Made by a program: the position numbers and the translations under genes
In this document: positions 14,832 to 21,510 of the stretch, in pieces
Layout of the letters: every line of letters begins with the position of its first letter
How positions within the stretch are numbered: position 1 is the first letter of the stretch
Notes under the pieces: generated by a model
What the model saw: the letters and a program-made list of their open reading frames with translations, nothing else
Database searches by the model: none
Told to the model about the DNA's origin: nothing
NCBI RefSeq assembly: GCF_038592985.1
Contig: NZ_CP151951.1
Coordinates: forward strand, 2,967,001 to 3,031,000
Length of the DNA stretch: 64,000 bases
Source: Paenibacillus sp. FSL R10-2782
Lineage (GTDB): Bacteria > Bacillota > Bacilli > Paenibacillales > Paenibacillaceae
Direction of reading: 5' to 3'

Positions 14832-15002
14832 ATGATCAAAAATAGAGTCAAGACGTATAAGCATCGTATTGGCAAGAACAAATTTCTGGTCGTAAAAGTC
14901 TTTCAGGCCGCAGCCGCAGAAACAAGAAGCGGTAACGCACTAGCCACAAACGCATTAAACATCAAAATTTCCAAACGCAGCCGTAAGCGTAAACACTTTT
15001 AA
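14832..15002 (+). CDS. Small, very basic protein with GNALA motif (copy 1)
   Basis: 56 residues, no family recognised. The start MIKNRVKTYKHRIGKNKF follows AAAAGGAGATAAGCTG. An upstream in-frame ATG at 14796 has no ribosome site. Roughly a third of the residues are Lys or Arg, concentrated at both ends (SKRSRKRKHF at the C-terminus). The middle, FQAAAAETRSGNALATNALNI, shares R-x-GNALAxN with the next gene. There is no signal peptide or hydrophobic helix, so a nucleic-acid-binding or spore-packing role is conceivable but not shown. Co-transcribed with copy 2, 43 bases downstream. Confidence 0.65.
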   Translation: MIKNRVKTYKHRIGKNKFLVVKVFQAAAAETRSGNALATNALNIKISKRSRKRKHF

Positions 15003-15045: not shown

Positions 15046-15186
15046 ATGTGTAAAAGACATTTCAAACGTAGCGTGAGAAGAAGAGGCTTATTGATCCTTT
15101 CAAATCAGAGAGCCGTTGCACGTGCTAGAGGTAACGCACTGGCTGTTAATCTGTTTAGCGTAAATGATAGACAACGCAGACGTTAA
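15046..15186 (+). CDS. Small, very basic protein with GNALA motif (copy 2)
   Basis: 46 residues, no family recognised. The ribosome site is excellent (AAGGGAGGTGAATATC before ATG 15046-15048), which argues that this short frame is translated. It begins MCKRHFKRSVRRRG and ends FSVNDRQRRR. The centre VARARGNALAVNLFSV matches the TRSGNALATNALNI block of the upstream gene, so the pair is probably an ancient tandem duplication. Eleven arginines in 46 residues give an extreme positive charge. A strong terminator closes the two-gene unit. Confidence 0.65.
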   Translation: MCKRHFKRSVRRRGLLILSNQRAVARARGNALAVNLFSVNDRQRRR

Positions 15187-15660: not shown

Positions 15661-15690
15661 AAAAAAAAAGAGCCGCTATCTAGTAGCAAC
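15661..15690 (-). terminator. Rho-independent terminator overlapping the end of the LytTR gene
   Basis: On the minus strand GTTGCTA and TAGCGGC pair with two G-U pairs around a 5-base loop, followed by nine or more T residues. The stem includes the last codons of the LytTR gene, so the operon ends exactly there. Confidence 0.8.
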
Positions 15691-16071
15691 TCCAGTGAAG
15701 ATTATGTTCGAATTAATGAAACCCATTTCCTCTATAACCTCTCCAAATCGGTGATAAGAGATTGGACACCTCTTCGACGTTTTTGTTATCTCACATTCAA
15801 AGTAAGCGTCTTTGAAAATGCCATTAACAATTTTCACCTTCTCCACATTCAGAGTATTGCTTCTGTCCACATTCAAGAAACGGAACCCATTATTATTTAG
15901 GAAGCTTTCCCAATGCTTTAAGGTGCCGATCATGTAATATGTTTTTTCGAATGTGTGAACTAGAATCTGATCCCTCTTATGTCCTTTAGATATGAAAAGA
16001 ACCTTGTCCACGGGTATGTTTTCACCCTTGTTAATACCTCCAGGAACAGCTGATACGGTTAGGTTTAGCAT
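15676..16071 (-). CDS. Stand-alone LytTR DNA-binding regulator
   Basis: About 131 residues. The LytTR signature is visible: VLFISKG near the start, YYMIGTLKHWESFLNNNGFRF, then LNVDRSNTLNVEKVKIVNG, matching the family pattern F-x-R-x-H-R-S-x-x-V-N. There is no receiver domain before it and no room for one. It is the last gene of an agr-like operon, 16 bases after the AgrD-like gene, and ends in a terminator. The start is the ATG with GGAG 9 bases upstream. The GTG five codons earlier coincides with that ribosome site. A role in sensing the AgrD-derived peptide is inferred from context. Confidence 0.82.
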   Translation of the reverse strand: MLNLTVSAVPGGINKGENIPVDKVLFISKGHKRDQILVHTFEKTYYMIGTLKHWESFLNNNGFRFLNVDRSNTLNVEKVKIVNGIFKDAYFECEITKTSKRCPISYHRFGEVIEEMGFINSNIIFTGVATR

Positions 16072-16087
16072 TTCACATATCTCCACT

Positions 16088-16234
16088 TTATTTCAACAGT
16101 TCTTCAGGTGGTTCGGGACTGTGAATCCAAGACAAACTCGCTGTACTCACTGATGCAACTGCAAGTGAAGTCAGTAATATGGCGGCATTGTAGTACATGC
16201 CAATTTTAAATTTACTAAATATAGGACTTTTCAT
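16088..16234 (-). CDS. AgrD-like cyclic lactone autoinducer prepeptide (locus 1)
   Basis: 48 residues. It has the three AgrD parts: a basic amphipathic/hydrophobic leader (MKSPIFSKFKIGMYYNAAIL and LTSLAVASVS), a core, and an acidic tail SPEPPEELLK. Aligned on the tail P-x-E-L, the core ends at Ile37 and a Ser at -5 gives a five-residue ring S-L-S-W-I, i.e. a lactone rather than a Cys thiolactone. The start overlaps the AgrB stop by ATGA, with GGGAGGTG in the ribosome site. The exact mature peptide is inference. Confidence 0.85.
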   Translation of the reverse strand: MKSPIFSKFKIGMYYNAAILLTSLAVASVSTASLSWIHSPEPPEELLK

Positions 16235-16767
16235 TTTTCGCACCTCCCTCCTATTAATGTTAAGCTCTGAACAAAAAAACTAGCAGCTACCACCGAAATA
16301 GCCAGCCACAAATTAAGTGTTATTATGAAGACTCCGAAAATCTTCAACAATGGGTAGTGCCGTTTAGGTATACGAGTCTTCCCGTCTATTCTAGACGGGG
16401 CGTAAACTAAGACAAGTATTATACTTAATACCGACGTAATAACTATCCCATTATAGTTTAAATTCACAAAGGACAAGGCAGTAAGTAAAGCTGTAGATAC
16501 AACAATACATACCACATTGCTCCTTAAATGTATTCCTCCTACAACTTGACGCAGTATAGAAAAAGATATCATCGCCAGTATGGTTTCCTGCACCTTACCC
16601 GTAATAAATGAAAGACCGATAGTTAACACAATAATTGAAACTGTATTAATCACAACGGCTATTCCATGTTTTAAAACCGCAATAGAAGCTGGATGATCCG
16701 GTACAACTGTTTTGATATGAGTTGCAATATCAAGAGCGATAGTATCAAGATTTTTTATAATAATCAC
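16231..16767 (-). CDS. AgrB-like membrane protease (locus 1)
   Basis: 178 residues with about five or six membrane helices. The catalytic pair of AgrB is present as H80 and C87 in RQVVGGIHLRSNVVC, the same 7-residue spacing as in staphylococcal AgrB. The enzyme cuts and cyclises the AgrD prepeptide in the membrane. It overlaps the upstream membrane-protein gene by 23 bases and the AgrD-like gene by 4, indicating translational coupling. The start is odd: GTG at 16765-16767 has GGAG only one base upstream, so an ATT or ATA codon a few bases on might be used. Confidence 0.92.
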   Translation of the reverse strand: MIIIKNLDTIALDIATHIKTVVPDHPASIAVLKHGIAVVINTVSIIVLTIGLSFITGKVQETILAMISFSILRQVVGGIHLRSNVVCIVVSTALLTALSFVNLNYNGIVITSVLSIILVLVYAPSRIDGKTRIPKRHYPLLKIFGVFIITLNLWLAISVVAASFFVQSLTLIGGRCEK

Positions 16768-17377
16768 GCTCCGTCTTTAGCGCATAGTACAAGAACATTC
16801 CAGATGCCAAAGCTATAAACAAAATACTCAGAGGAAAATTATTGACGTAGAACATAAATGTACTAGCGGCTAGTACCCCAATTATTAAAATAACAACAAG
16901 TACATGTTCCCACCTAAAACGCAAGCTTTCATAATCTGCTGTAAAGCCTATTTTGAATTTATATAGCAACCATGATATAGCTAATACCCATGCACTGGTT
17001 ACCGCTTGAGCTAACGATCCCTCTGGAGAGGTCTCCATGTCTGATGTCAATGTACCAAAGATCATTACTATGATTATTGCTTGGAACAGCGTATACAAAA
17101 ACGTACCTGTAATGGATATAATAGCTGACCAAATAATAGGCATCCTTACAACAGTAGTTATCAATAATGTGAATAATATAATGTTTATAGTCGGAGCAAA
17201 AAAAGACAACGACGTTTCTTCTCTTAACACCAGACTTTGCAAATTCATGATCAGGCCGATAAACAATGCAGGCCAGACAAAATCTAAAGCTCGGATTCTG
17301 AAAATAGTAAGCATTAAAACAAACGCCGCAAATGTTTCAACATTAGAAAATAGCAAGAACCGTATAGGCTCCCACAT
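16745..17377 (-). CDS. Polytopic membrane protein, AgrC sensor-like but without kinase domain (locus 1)
   Basis: About 210 residues with about seven predicted helices (for example FVLMLTIFRIRALDFVWPAL, IILFTLLITTVVRM, WVLAISWLLYKFKIGF and VLVVILIIGVLAASTF). It then ends at ALKTERDYYKKS, just where an AgrC-type sensor would continue into its dimerisation helix and ATPase. No histidine-kinase motif exists in it or nearby. First gene of the operon, followed by AgrB. Start ATG 17375-17377 with GGGGA 8 bases upstream. The sensor or inhibitor role is inferred from position and topology only. Confidence 0.7.
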   Translation of the reverse strand: MWEPIRFLLFSNVETFAAFVLMLTIFRIRALDFVWPALFIGLIMNLQSLVLREETSLSFFAPTINIILFTLLITTVVRMPIIWSAIISITGTFLYTLFQAIIIVMIFGTLTSDMETSPEGSLAQAVTSAWVLAISWLLYKFKIGFTADYESLRFRWEHVLVVILIIGVLAASTFMFYVNNFPLSILFIALASGMFLYYALKTERDYYKKS

Positions 17378-17418
17378 AACACATATCCCCTTCACTCCAT
17401 TGTAACCAATACTATAAT

Positions 17419-17490
17419 TCTATATTTGCTATAACAGTATAGCAATACAATTACCTGTTTATTTGGAATATTATGTATTATGTTAGGTAG
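17419..17490 (-). promoter_or_regulatory. Promoter/operator element upstream of agr-like locus 1
   Basis: A block of about 50 bases at 17441-17490 matches 21461-21510 upstream of locus 2 almost without gaps (AGCAAT-CAAT-ACCT-TT-A--TGG pattern on the plus strand). In both loci a TATAGA/TATACA -10-like box lies 17 bases further toward the gene (17419-17424 here). TTGCTATAACAGTATAGCAA at 17426-17445 is an inverted repeat present only here. Confidence 0.6.
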
Positions 17491-18710: not shown

Positions 18711-19997
18711 AAACTGTACCCTATGTAAAGGACATTTCTAAAAAAGACCTATACTGTTTGAAGAAGATGATCTCTGTACTGAACGGGGGTCATCCTTTTT
18801 AAATTCCATTGGTATCTGTAGTAGTTGTAGTAGGTCATATATGCCTTGATTTCTCGTTTGACTTCATCCAGCGTGGTGCAGTTCTTCAGCGATATTTCAT
18901 CATTAAAATGACCAAAGAAGGATTCCTGCGGAGCATTGTCCCAGCAATTTCCCCGTCTGGACATGGATTGCCCGAGACCCATACGTTTCACTTTCTTCTG
19001 AAAATCCGGATGAGTGTAGTGGGTACCTTGATCGGAATGAATGAAGGCGTCTTGGGTCTTCTTGAATCTACGATTCTTCTGTAAGTGAAGCAAGGTGTTT
19101 GTCGCCAGATCCATGGTGGCTCGCTCCGACACATGATAAGCCAAAATTTCATTGGTGGAGCTATCCTTGATCGTGGACAGATAGGCTCGCTTCCCTTTTC
19201 CATAACTTAAGTAGGTAATATCGGTGAGAAGAATCTTGCCAGGCACTCCCTGTTTGAAGTTACGTTGTAATAAGTTAGGCACGACTCGATGCTCCTGGGT
19301 TGCCTTCATCATTCGCTTGTACGGATTCGCTTTTCGATGAGGACATACGATACCATATTTTTTCATGATTCTTCGGATTCGCTTGAGATTCCAGACGATC
19401 TGAAATTGTCCTTCCAGTGTCATCTTGATGGAGCGCGCTCCTTTGTTACGCTTTTTAAAATCGAAGGCCTTGCTGACGTGAACTCGGATTTCCTCGTCAG
19501 CCTGCTCTTTCTGATTGCGCCTGTGGATGGATGACGCGGTCCAATACCGGTAGTAGCCGCTTTTGGAGACACCTGCAATCCCGCACAGATAGCTCACCAT
19601 TCGTCGGAGATTGTATTTCAGAATCACGGTGCCTCTTGCATCGTGCAAGCCTAAGTCGCCTTGCTCTCTGTAACGGGCTCTCCACCGTTTTGCAGCGGCT
19701 TTGATGCGAGTCATTCCAACGATCTGTACTTCGAACCCACAGGACTCAAAAATGTCCATGGGCAGCTTTCCTTGCTGATTCGATGTAATAAAGAGTTGTC
19801 TGAACTCATCTGTATACGTAATTCCTTTGGTCGATGCAGACTTCACATACGGGTTTTCGGAAAGTTGTTTCACTTCTTTTGTTGTAAACGTTTTTTTACT
19901 CATCGGCTGATCTCCATCCTTGTCTCGTTCGTGGCATAAATTAAAAATACCCCATAGATAGACTTTTTTAAAGTGTCTACTCTATAGGGTACAGTTT
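18711..19997 (-). mobile_element. IS3-family insertion sequence (IS150-like)
   Basis: About 1287 bp. The ends AAACTGTACCCTAT and ATAGGGTACAGTTT (extending imperfectly to about 35 bases) are inverted repeats. AAT flanks both sides (18708-18710 and 19998-20000), a 3-bp target duplication typical for IS3 elements. It carries a single transposase frame. It lies directly downstream of the AgrD-like gene of locus 2. Confidence 0.9.
18749..19903 (-). CDS. IS3-family transposase, OrfA and OrfB fused by an apparent internal deletion
   Basis: 384 residues in one frame. Residues 1-90 (TTKEVKQLSENPYVKSASTK ... RWRARYREQGDLGLHDARG) are an OrfA-type helix-turn-helix. From about residue 95 (NLRRMVSYLCGIAGVSKSGYY) it is OrfB. 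The integrase core has D (LLTDITYLSYG), D (IHSDQGTHYTHP) and E (NAPQESFFGHF). Related IS elements have a leucine-zipper segment plus a -1 frameshift between OrfA and OrfB. Here that segment is missing and the frames are joined. Whether the fused enzyme is active is uncertain. Confidence 0.85.
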   Translation of the reverse strand: MSKKTFTTKEVKQLSENPYVKSASTKGITYTDEFRQLFITSNQQGKLPMDIFESCGFEVQIVGMTRIKAAAKRWRARYREQGDLGLHDARGTVILKYNLRRMVSYLCGIAGVSKSGYYRYWTASSIHRRNQKEQADEEIRVHVSKAFDFKKRNKGARSIKMTLEGQFQIVWNLKRIRRIMKKYGIVCPHRKANPYKRMMKATQEHRVVPNLLQRNFKQGVPGKILLTDITYLSYGKGKRAYLSTIKDSSTNEILAYHVSERATMDLATNTLLHLQKNRRFKKTQDAFIHSDQGTHYTHPDFQKKVKRMGLGQSMSRRGNCWDNAPQESFFGHFNDEISLKNCTTLDEVKREIKAYMTYYNYYRYQWNLKRMTPVQYRDHLLQTV

Positions 19998-20072
19998 AAT
20001 ACTGGAGAAGCTTTTCTGTATCTATATTACAATTATATTTGGTGGCAAAATTCGCTTTCCATCTTCCAAATA

Positions 20073-20219
20073 TTAATTCGTTTCTTTACTCTTCTGATCT
20101 TTTTTCTTCAACTCTTCTGGTATTGATTTAGCGCCAAATACTGTTTTTTCATTTTTAGTAGATTCGCCAGCGTATTTCCCCAGTTTTACATTTAAAGCTC
20201 TCGCCAATCTCTTATCCAT
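20073..20219 (-). CDS. AgrD-like prepeptide (locus 2), unusual core without cysteine
   Basis: 48 residues, the same length as the locus 1 peptide. It begins MDKRLARALNVKLGKYAG and carries the tail motif SIPEELKKK, comparable with PPEELLK of locus 1. The leader is more basic and less hydrophobic than usual. Aligned on P-E-E-L the core would end at Phe29. With no Cys, a Ser at -9 (S-T-K-N-E-K-T-V-F) could give a nine-residue lactone like that of the Fsr pheromone, but this is speculative. GGAGGGG precedes the start, which lies inside the end of the AgrB-like gene. Confidence 0.75.
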   Translation of the reverse strand: MDKRLARALNVKLGKYAGESTKNEKTVFGAKSIPEELKKKDQKSKETN

Positions 20220-20740
20220 TTCCGTTCCCCTCCTCTCCATATAGGAATTATACTGAAAGCTTGTACCGCTAAAGACAAACATATTATCGTTGATTGTGTA
20301 AAAAAATTCAACATGCAAATGGAAATGCATATGATTTTGAAATACTTATGGTTTGCAGACTTTTCAATATAGATAAAATGATTAGGTGCATAAACGAAAA
20401 ACACTAGTAATGAGCAAACGCTAATAATTAAAAATGTTGATATTCCCATAGAGAAAAAAGGTATAGTAACACATACTGCTGTTGTAAAAAATAAACAGAA
20501 CGTAAGACTAGAGAAGTGTGCACCTCCTGAAAATTTTCTTATTAACATAAGACTGCCAAGCGCTAATAACGACCCGAAGAAATGACCTGTTAACCAGCCT
20601 GTAAGTGAGACAAAAAGGATAGTCGAAAATTCAGTAAGCCTTATCCCGAGTGCATATTCCATCACTTCTATACTTGTAGGTCCATCAGGATCAGCTTTTT
20701 TTATTTCTGTTGCGATGTACCTGGATAACGCTTCTAGCAT
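20192..20740 (-). CDS. AgrB-like membrane protease (locus 2)
   Basis: 182 residues, multiple membrane helices. The catalytic pair is H75 and C82 in IRKFSGGAHFSSLTFC, with the conserved GG-x-H and 7-residue spacing. FVYAPNHFIYIEK in the later part resembles VLVYAPSRIDGKT of the locus 1 protein, so the two are paralogues. The ribosome site GGGGGG lies 9-12 bases before the ATG. It overlaps the upstream membrane-protein gene by 50 bases and the AgrD-like gene by 28. Confidence 0.9.
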   Translation of the reverse strand: MLEALSRYIATEIKKADPDGPTSIEVMEYALGIRLTEFSTILFVSLTGWLTGHFFGSLLALGSLMLIRKFSGGAHFSSLTFCLFFTTAVCVTIPFFSMGISTFLIISVCSLLVFFVYAPNHFIYIEKSANHKYFKIICISICMLNFFTQSTIICLSLAVQAFSIIPIWRGGERKWIRDWREL

Positions 20741-21404
20741 CCTCGTAATCCCCCCGCTCTGAAAAAAAATAGGACAATCCGAAAGTAAACAATGAAATGG
20801 AAAGTAATCCTATTGTGCTAGAGTTATAAAGCATATATAAAGTAATAAAGATAGTAATCGTTGATATTAGCGAACCTAAAATTAACATCTTATTTAGGGA
20901 TGAGAAATAATTTTCACCTCTTAAAAAATCGTGTGGAGGCTGAATTATAAACGAGAACCCAAAGTTATATTTCCCCATAACAAAAGAAATCAAGTATGCA
21001 ATAATGATAGAAGATAACTGAATAAAGTAAATAGAAAACCCAGAAGTGTAATTGATAGCACCCGGTTGTGCTGCTCCGAAAAAATTCGCAAATAGATATA
21101 CAAATAGCTGTAGGTTAATGTAGGCTGTTAGACCAGAACCTGCAGAAAAAGCCCCCAGATGTGTTTTGATCCCTAAACCGAATCTAAAAAAGATAACCAT
21201 AAACAAATACTGAAACGGCAAATCTAATTTAGGGACACCTATAACTACCCTCATAAGAAAAGAAAACAAAGCTATGCCAATTGCGTAGAAAAGTATTTTT
21301 CTACGATATTCCCAAACGGGAAGCATATAAAGCTTTAAGACCAAAGTCACAACGGCCAAAGCATCGAATACCCCAAGTAAAATATACAAAAAAGCAGATA
21401 ACAC
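20691..21404 (-). CDS. Polytopic membrane protein, kinase-less sensor-like (locus 2)
   Basis: 237 residues with about seven predicted helices (FLYILLGVFDALAVVTLVL, ILFYAIGIALFSFLMRVVIG, FQYLFMVIFFRFGLG and LISTITIFITLYMLY are examples). It ends in a short basic tail, SVIQVHRNRNKKS. As in locus 1 it precedes AgrB and has no histidine-kinase domain. Start GTG 21402-21404 with GGAGG about 11 bases upstream. Any receptor function is inferred. Sequence relation to the locus 1 protein is not obvious by eye. Confidence 0.7.
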   Translation of the reverse strand: MLSAFLYILLGVFDALAVVTLVLKLYMLPVWEYRRKILFYAIGIALFSFLMRVVIGVPKLDLPFQYLFMVIFFRFGLGIKTHLGAFSAGSGLTAYINLQLFVYLFANFFGAAQPGAINYTSGFSIYFIQLSSIIIAYLISFVMGKYNFGFSFIIQPPHDFLRGENYFSSLNKMLILGSLISTITIFITLYMLYNSSTIGLLSISLFTFGLSYFFSERGDYEDARSVIQVHRNRNKKS

Positions 21405-21438: not shown

Positions 21439-21510
21439 TGTATATTTTACTGGGATTAGTAGCAATGCAATAACCTATTAAACTGGTAATTTTTGTCCTC
21501 ATGTAAGATA
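21439..21510 (-). promoter_or_regulatory. Promoter/operator element upstream of agr-like locus 2
   Basis: 21461-21510 matches 17441-17490 over about 50 bases with nearly no gaps. The -10-like TATACA (21439-21444 on the minus strand) has the same 17-base offset as at locus 1. The distance to the first gene (about 57 versus 64 bases) is also alike. Confidence 0.6.

Follow-up and report, generated by a model that had tools for sequence, protein, structure and literature searches.

In a window of 64,000 nucleotides from Paenibacillus sp. FSL R10-2782, the minus strand carries an agr-type operon (15669-17489) in which AgrB and AgrD occur together with a membrane protein lacking a kinase and a LytTR regulator lacking a receiver. 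That this operon is an agr system without phosphorelay on either side is well supported by its sequence, and we infer that it signals without phosphorelay. Direct coupling between the membrane protein and the LytTR regulator would be the best explanation of the arrangement, with a probability of roughly 0.7. In the proposed mechanism, AgrB would cut and cyclise AgrD to give a secreted five-residue Ser-lactone, probably SLSWI and perhaps with an N-terminal tail. The membrane protein, an AgrC sensor half without kinase, would bind this peptide outside the cell and would contact the regulator, a DNA-binding half of AgrA that has no receiver, directly via conserved cytosolic loops. Binding of the peptide would most likely release the regulator from the membrane protein, in the manner of the LytTR Regulatory Systems (LRS), and the operon would then be activated by its own product. 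The stripped-down layout, found in a soil bacterium, many of its relatives and some phages, may thus reflect direct contact between a receptor and a DNA-binding protein. If so, AgrC-type cyclic-peptide sensing needs no phosphorylation, and the path from receptor to DNA becomes testable with two proteins.

Gene content and conservation of the operon

The operon comprises TM1, AgrB1, AgrD1 and LytTR1, in that order, with neighbouring genes overlapping or almost touching. TM1 (16745..17377, minus strand) is an ORF of 210 amino acids with homology to AgrC N-termini and a model with seven predicted helices, and matched no Pfam family at E<=1. AgrB1 (16231..16767, minus strand) is a membrane cysteine peptidase (PF04647, E 9e-17) with the residues H80 and C87, and AgrD1 (16088..16234, minus strand) is a pro-peptide of 48 amino acids that matches TIGR04223 with an E-value of 3e-7, above the curated cut-off. 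LytTR1 (15676..16071, minus strand), of 131 amino acids, resembles an AgrA without receiver, and its end overlaps a terminator-like hairpin followed by a T-run (15669..15693, minus strand). The likely starts were picked by eye (TM ATG 17377, AgrD ATG 16234, LytTR ATG 16071). All the components listed in the initial annotation, namely four coupled genes, a terminator and the H80/C87 pair of AgrB, were recovered. AgrB family matches at E<=0.001 occur at only two places in the genome, AgrB1 and the AgrB2 of a second locus described below. Close by in the window, at 14833-15002 and 15046-15186, lies a tandem pair of small, very basic proteins with a common RSGNALA/RGNALA stretch.

A search with TM1 identified relatives in 27 of 75 genomes of the genus, at 51 places, every one of which was retrieved. 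A profile built from 32 TM proteins found matches in at least 110 of the family's 197 genomes and at least 15 of its 19 genera, among the matches listed, of which a part was retrieved. The set used for counting comprises 196 loci (L033-L083, L104-L176 and L209-L280, overlaps removed) and yields 193 TM matches, in which tandem pairs count twice and one gene (L249) is split across two frames. AgrB lies directly downstream of TM in 175 of these 193 matches. A LytTR gene is found within 1.7 kb of TM in 160, with 32 of the 193 having less than 1.6 kb of downstream sequence, and since all loci were found through TM, the frequency of LytTR-only genes elsewhere is outside the reach of the survey. The conserved gene order that the initial annotation had proposed to look for in Paenibacillus is thereby established: the architecture is real and widespread, and the order seen at locus 1 is far beyond chance because it recurs in most of the 193 matches. 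The catalytic His of AgrB is kept in 174 of 175 cases and the catalytic Cys in 173. None of the 193 TM matches carries a C-terminal kinase, the residues past the match numbering 25 or fewer, and six have neither AgrB nor LytTR beside them, one of these (L250) being situated at a contig end.

The exceptions to this layout bear on the coupling of TM and LytTR. At three loci (L108, L110 and L114) TM adjoins LytTR and both AgrB and AgrD are absent, and as TM and LytTR are kept together there, the two appear to be tied to each other. Two groups were counted against direct coupling. One consists of 12 loci in a single group (L056-L067) with TM-AgrB-AgrD and no LytTR nearby, although 10 of the 12 genomes hold a LytTR-bearing operon elsewhere; the other consists of four loci (L072, L073, L074 and L078) where TM stands without AgrB, AgrD or LytTR. 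The solitary TM of these four loci is possibly a listening-only receptor. The gene adjoins one for a small Cys-rich protein.

The membrane protein and the question of a kinase

By homology, TM represents the sensor half of a single branch of AgrC. When the TM profile was compared with the N-termini of AgrB-adjacent kinases from other Bacilli, four of them (L188, L179, L182 and L202) matched with E-values, computed within this small set, of 6e-8 to 8e-5; L205 gave 0.24 and L203 was absent from the matches. In these kinases the DHp domain (SPOB_a) begins at residue 239-251, shortly behind the four TM matches, whose ends lie at 193-230. For five of the six AgrC-type kinases the frame is located ahead of AgrB in the same orientation, and that of L202 comes after it; the order of the five, shared by TM and AgrB, was counted in favour of TM as an AgrC sensor half. 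A profile-profile comparison of 80 TM proteins with the six AgrC-type N-termini gave a probability of 97.7% and an E-value of 7e-12 over 220 columns, with controls at or below 0.4% (reversed TM, 0.1 and 0.4%; TM against AgrB, 0.1%; AgrB against AgrC, 0.1-0.2%). A smaller comparison, resting, unlike the larger one, on an alignment with one overlong row (L202), gave a probability of 95.5 over 154 columns. No match to TM was obtained with the AgrC N-terminus of the staphylococcal type (0.3%). Thus the comparison with AgrC N-terminal domains suggested in the initial annotation relates the membrane protein to a single branch of AgrC.

The AlphaFold model of TM1 shows seven long helices with a pLDDT of 87.9, and a search of the PDB with the TM model returned no structural relative. 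Among the matches listed, relatives of TM are named 'hypothetical' or 'uncharacterized', with the exception of one UniRef label (P0020, DUF1275). In 134 TM proteins of the Ser/Cys type, conservation amounts to 2.62, 2.69 and 2.09 bits in the predicted cytosolic loops, 1.72, 1.20 and 1.39 bits in the predicted outer loops and 1.65-2.12 bits in the helices, where the topology is a positive-inside guess on the seven-helix model and the loops are short. One loop, L5, is no more conserved than the helices.

An unlikely alternative is that TM1 handles the peptide, in export, leader removal or self-protection, and is not its receptor, with LytTR1 regulating the operon independently. Such a role would suit a protein without Pfam family whose gene so regularly adjoins AgrB, but the homology of TM to the AgrC sensor spans the entire protein, and TM stays beside LytTR at the three loci where AgrB and AgrD are gone.

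Forms that retain more of a classical system were found outside this set. The TM profile matches 40 of 398 Bacilli genomes. In four genomes of one genus (L288-L291) the match lies inside proteins of 418-453 amino acids followed by AgrB and AgrD, and at three of these four loci a receiver-bearing regulator of 244-251 amino acids is present. Their length suggested full kinases, which was ruled out: no HATPase was detected in any of the four by Pfam at E<=0.01, two of them having been rescanned at E<=10, and in the alignment the acceptor His, the N-box Asn-Ala and the G-box stretch are missing from all four, so that they are pseudokinases with a degenerate kinase region. The six comparison kinases, called intact from their motifs, all possess the acceptor His and the N-box, and five possess the G-box; L179 stops short of it (frame end 1313) and may be broken. 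At L293, a locus outside the family, a kinase-less TM is paired with a receiver-bearing LytTR regulator. Four states are therefore found, namely a motif-bearing kinase, a pseudokinase, no kinase with a receiver and no kinase without a receiver, between which we infer a direction of change. If the proposed mechanism holds, the motif-bearing kinase, the pseudokinase and the form with no kinase represent evolutionary intermediates.

A kinase encoded elsewhere might still serve the operon. TM1 would then be a co-receptor or a remnant, an unlinked histidine kinase would relay the signal, and LytTR would act downstream of a response regulator. The genome holds four LytTR genes and 13 HATPase_c_5 matches, of which the strongest alone adjoins a LytTR gene; it belongs to a pair of GHKL kinase and receiver-LytTR protein at 569-571 kb that lacks its own AgrB and was counted in favour of such a relay. 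A relative of this kinase (E<=1e-20) occurs in 59 of 75 genomes of the genus. By its distribution, however, the kinase does not track the operon, because it is missing in 9 of the 27 genomes with TM (TM1 search; present in 18) and is found in 41 of the 48 others. The TM profile search adds at least four genomes of the genus with TM (G033, G049, G053 and G067), each with the kinase. LytTR1, moreover, has no receiver to take the phosphate. The relay through an unlinked kinase is accordingly judged improbable, and the genomic search for a kinase and AgrA partner elsewhere, a possibility raised in the initial annotation, favours the operon acting without one.

The LytTR regulator, upstream elements and known systems

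LytTR1 matches PF04397 with an E-value of 1.5e-6 and no other Pfam family, receiver included. Its model has a pLDDT of 92.7, and the best PDB matches are the DNA-binding domain of AgrA (4xqj, 4xqn, 3bs1 and 4g4k, E about 5e-6), so the regulator described initially as a LytTR protein without receiver is one in both family and fold. The LytTR frames are shorter than 200 amino acids in 155 of 160 survey loci, and no receiver was matched in the five longer ones. Two of these, L213 and L214, contain two LytTR stretches in one chain according to Pfam. In L035 and L211 Pfam detects one LytTR (below the cut-off in L035), and the C-terminal half resembles the first LytTR region of a relative with E-values of 4e-12 and 8e-12. 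In the fifth, L223, the frame starts inside AgrB and one LytTR spans residues 91-161. The double-LytTR proteins belong to some operons of the TM2 type, and with two LytTR domains per chain, pairing would not require phosphorylation.

Upstream of TM1 a promoter-like sequence, TTGCTA-17 bp-TAGAAT (17417..17445, minus strand), fits the consensus, and its -10 region is conserved in close relatives; the scan found nine promoter-like sites against a mean of 7.4 in shuffles, which is no excess. A conserved element, TACCTAACAT-N11-TTCCAAAT (17461..17489, minus strand), was identified from close relatives and a genome pattern search and is a candidate LytTR site. A similar element precedes TM2 (21481..21510, minus strand), as found by alignment of close relatives and the same kind of search. 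The element, common to close relatives, reads as an imperfect direct repeat. Its strict form occurs in the genome only before TM1 and TM2, the two sites from which the pattern was derived, with one match in the backward control. Across the family, repeat pairs at single spacings of 20-24 bp slightly exceed shuffles (7 against 1.6 of 123 upstream regions at 21 bp), and a motif search, for which near-duplicates were dropped to leave 78 of these regions, scored 54.8 against 35-45 in four shuffles with a motif of low information. The direct repeats of LRS measure 9 bp, are spaced 11-13 bp apart and sit just upstream of the -35 region; with so weak a family-wide motif, repeats of this type are not established throughout the family. 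In the clade of TM1 and TM2 the sequences are suggestive of LRS-type direct repeats.

The initial annotation had taken the membrane protein and the regulator for an LRS-like pair. Part of this holds, as AgrB and AgrD are indeed combined in a conserved layout with a membrane protein that has no kinase and a LytTR protein that has no receiver; a role as an inhibitor of the LRS type is not supported for the membrane protein, which is related to AgrC, and the gene order is reversed. Like the LRS HdrRM and BrsRM, the present operon unites a receiver-less LytTR protein with a polytopic membrane protein. Unlike them, it has the regulator gene downstream, AgrB and AgrD in between, and an AgrC-related membrane protein. 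In one account, the LRS regulator gene is located upstream of the membrane-protein gene, and LRS-like Bacteroides operons with the two in reverse order are listed too (PMC6193735). The order of the S. mutans type is not that of TM, AgrB, AgrD and LytTR seen here, and membership in the LRS is not supported; the operon may nevertheless work like one. With the Agr system of staphylococci and other Bacilli (AgrBDCA) it shares the AgrB and AgrD families, represented here by a peptidase with His and Cys and by the AgrD1 pro-peptide, as well as the sensor of one AgrC branch and an AgrA-like DNA-binding domain. It differs from Agr in that the sensor has no kinase domain and the regulator no receiver, neither an AgrC kinase nor a receiver-LytTR AgrA being present. 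In addition, most members have Ser or Lys at the ring-closing position, unlike the Cys of Agr.

AgrD cores, the second locus and phage copies

Core positions in AgrD were counted backwards from the PxxL motif. Among 143 distinct cores, 101 have Ser or Cys at -10 (one of them, L042, being a false ORF), 30 have Lys at -9, and none has both; of the remaining 12, seven have Ser or Cys shifted by one and one (L071) is mis-anchored. The last four, from L072, L074, L078 and L108, lie at loci that have no AgrB and are not AgrDs. The rule was applied to 20 loci retrieved after it had been fixed, all of which conform (14 Ser/Cys and 6 Lys); they hold 16 distinct five-residue cores, some of them near-copies of earlier ones (L295, for example, resembles L279). 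In 175 loci assigned by script, the ring-closing residue is Ser in 101, Lys in 34 and Cys in 33, with seven AgrDs missed by the selector. Three of the seven (L214, L224 and L257) were typed as lysine by eye from six-frame text, L224 and L257 having no PxxL motif and being anchored on the corresponding proline, and the other four (L112, L115, L042 and L132) were read as serine type. Apart from the singleton L167, the lysine type falls into a single clade of 36 tips, three of them typed by eye, in the trees of TM (support 84) and AgrB (support 85). The exclusivity of Ser/Cys and Lys has a Fisher p of 3e-30 in a test that ignores relatedness. Independent origins of the lysine type were not upheld: the trees require no more than two changes on TM and AgrB and three on LytTR, so most of the weight of the rule comes from a single deep clade, with L167 in addition.

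Rings closed by Ser or Cys across five residues and by Lys across four have the same size, 16 atoms. Since Lys and Ser/Cys never co-occur, this arithmetic predicts a lysine lactam of equal size, and lysine-type AgrDs could give rise to lactam peptides with the 16-atom ring unchanged; linear peptides cut at the lysine are another possible product. In the mechanism proposed for Agr, Cys28 attacks the AgrB thioester to form a 16-membered thiolactone (PMC4979651). The window holds one core of each type. For AgrD1 the predicted ring is SLSWI (16124..16138, minus strand; positions -10 to -6 before PxxL), a putative 16-membered Ser lactone whose cleavage site is likewise predicted. For AgrD2 it is KTVF (20136..20147, minus strand), a putative 16-membered Lys lactam placed by the core positions. 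Lysine-type AgrDs would represent new chemistry for autoinducing peptides, and no description of natural lactam autoinducers or of the four-gene system was recognized from titles or abstracts in searches of the open PMC full texts. That the cyclic peptide is aimed at competitors, with LytTR1 as a local regulator, would fit rings that differ greatly among species and an operon carried by phages, but is highly improbable, since the sensor is of the AgrC type and the DNA-binding domain of the AgrA type, and both are signalling parts.

The second set, TM2, AgrB2 and AgrD2 (20073-21404), was absent from the initial annotation. TM2 (20691..21404, minus strand) is a second kinase-less sensor, assigned to the lysine-type clade by its ORF, the same HMM family and the tree. 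AgrB2 (20192..20740, minus strand) matches PF04647 with an E-value of 4.5e-19. AgrD2 (20073..20219, minus strand), a pro-peptide of 48 amino acids that has Lys at -9 but lacks Ser or Cys at -10, was recognized by its position behind AgrB2 and its PEEL motif, with no match in Pfam or NCBIfam, TIGR04223 included. The regulator of this operon has been lost at about 20037-20072, as in L033, where 21 N-terminal residues are left; the relatives L035 and L211 retain a double-LytTR-like protein. An IS3-type element (about 18711-19998; transposase 18749-19903, PF00665 among others) lies between the TM2 locus and a gene that we take to be OsmC-like, and is missing at the corresponding site of L033, a locus of the same species. 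At 1339 kb in the genome (L102:1459-1812) a solitary LytTR-only gene (PF04397) is found with no AgrB linked. Its product resembles, by eye, phage LytTR proteins and might serve TM2.

The same order of TM, AgrB, a small peptide and a protein of 118-122 amino acids occurs in the Brevibacillus laterosporus phages Abouo, Davies and Emery and the Paenibacillus larvae phages Harrison and Paisley, with TM present in two copies in Davies and Emery. The last protein passes the Pfam cut-off for LytTR in Abouo, Harrison and Paisley but falls short of it in Emery (0.0016) and Davies (0.0074). The three phage AgrDs compared with the AgrD profile gave no match and owe their name to position and motif. Genes for an integrase, a recombinase or a regulator are annotated in the vicinity of the phage copies, which would form a counterpart of arbitrium based on an extracellular peptide. 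An earlier report (PMC3901668) had noted AgrB and AgrD in Davies, Emery and Abouo, together with membrane proteins devoid of HATPase; here these membrane proteins are assigned to the TM family and are followed by a LytTR-only gene. The agr3 of phiCDHM1, according to the same report, differs in having a HATPase-bearing AgrC and no response regulator (PMC3901668). Two further papers mention an agr-like cassette in P. polymyxa (PMC7425212) and two AgrB clusters in a Paenibacillus strain (PMC10938842).

Taken together, these operons may, as a tentative reading that we hold to be somewhat doubtful, constitute a third kind of peptide signalling in Bacilli and temperate phages, based on contact between an AgrC without kinase and a LytTR activator that lacks a receiver and is sometimes double. 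A deep branch that includes the phages and the second locus would use lysine-closed 16-atom lactams with the ring size of classical thiolactones, and the phage copies, lying among integrase and repressor genes, may inform lysogeny. At one survey locus (L081), TM-AgrB-AgrD-LytTR is situated on a 28-kb contig together with integrase-like and further phage-like ORFs, as recognized by eye.
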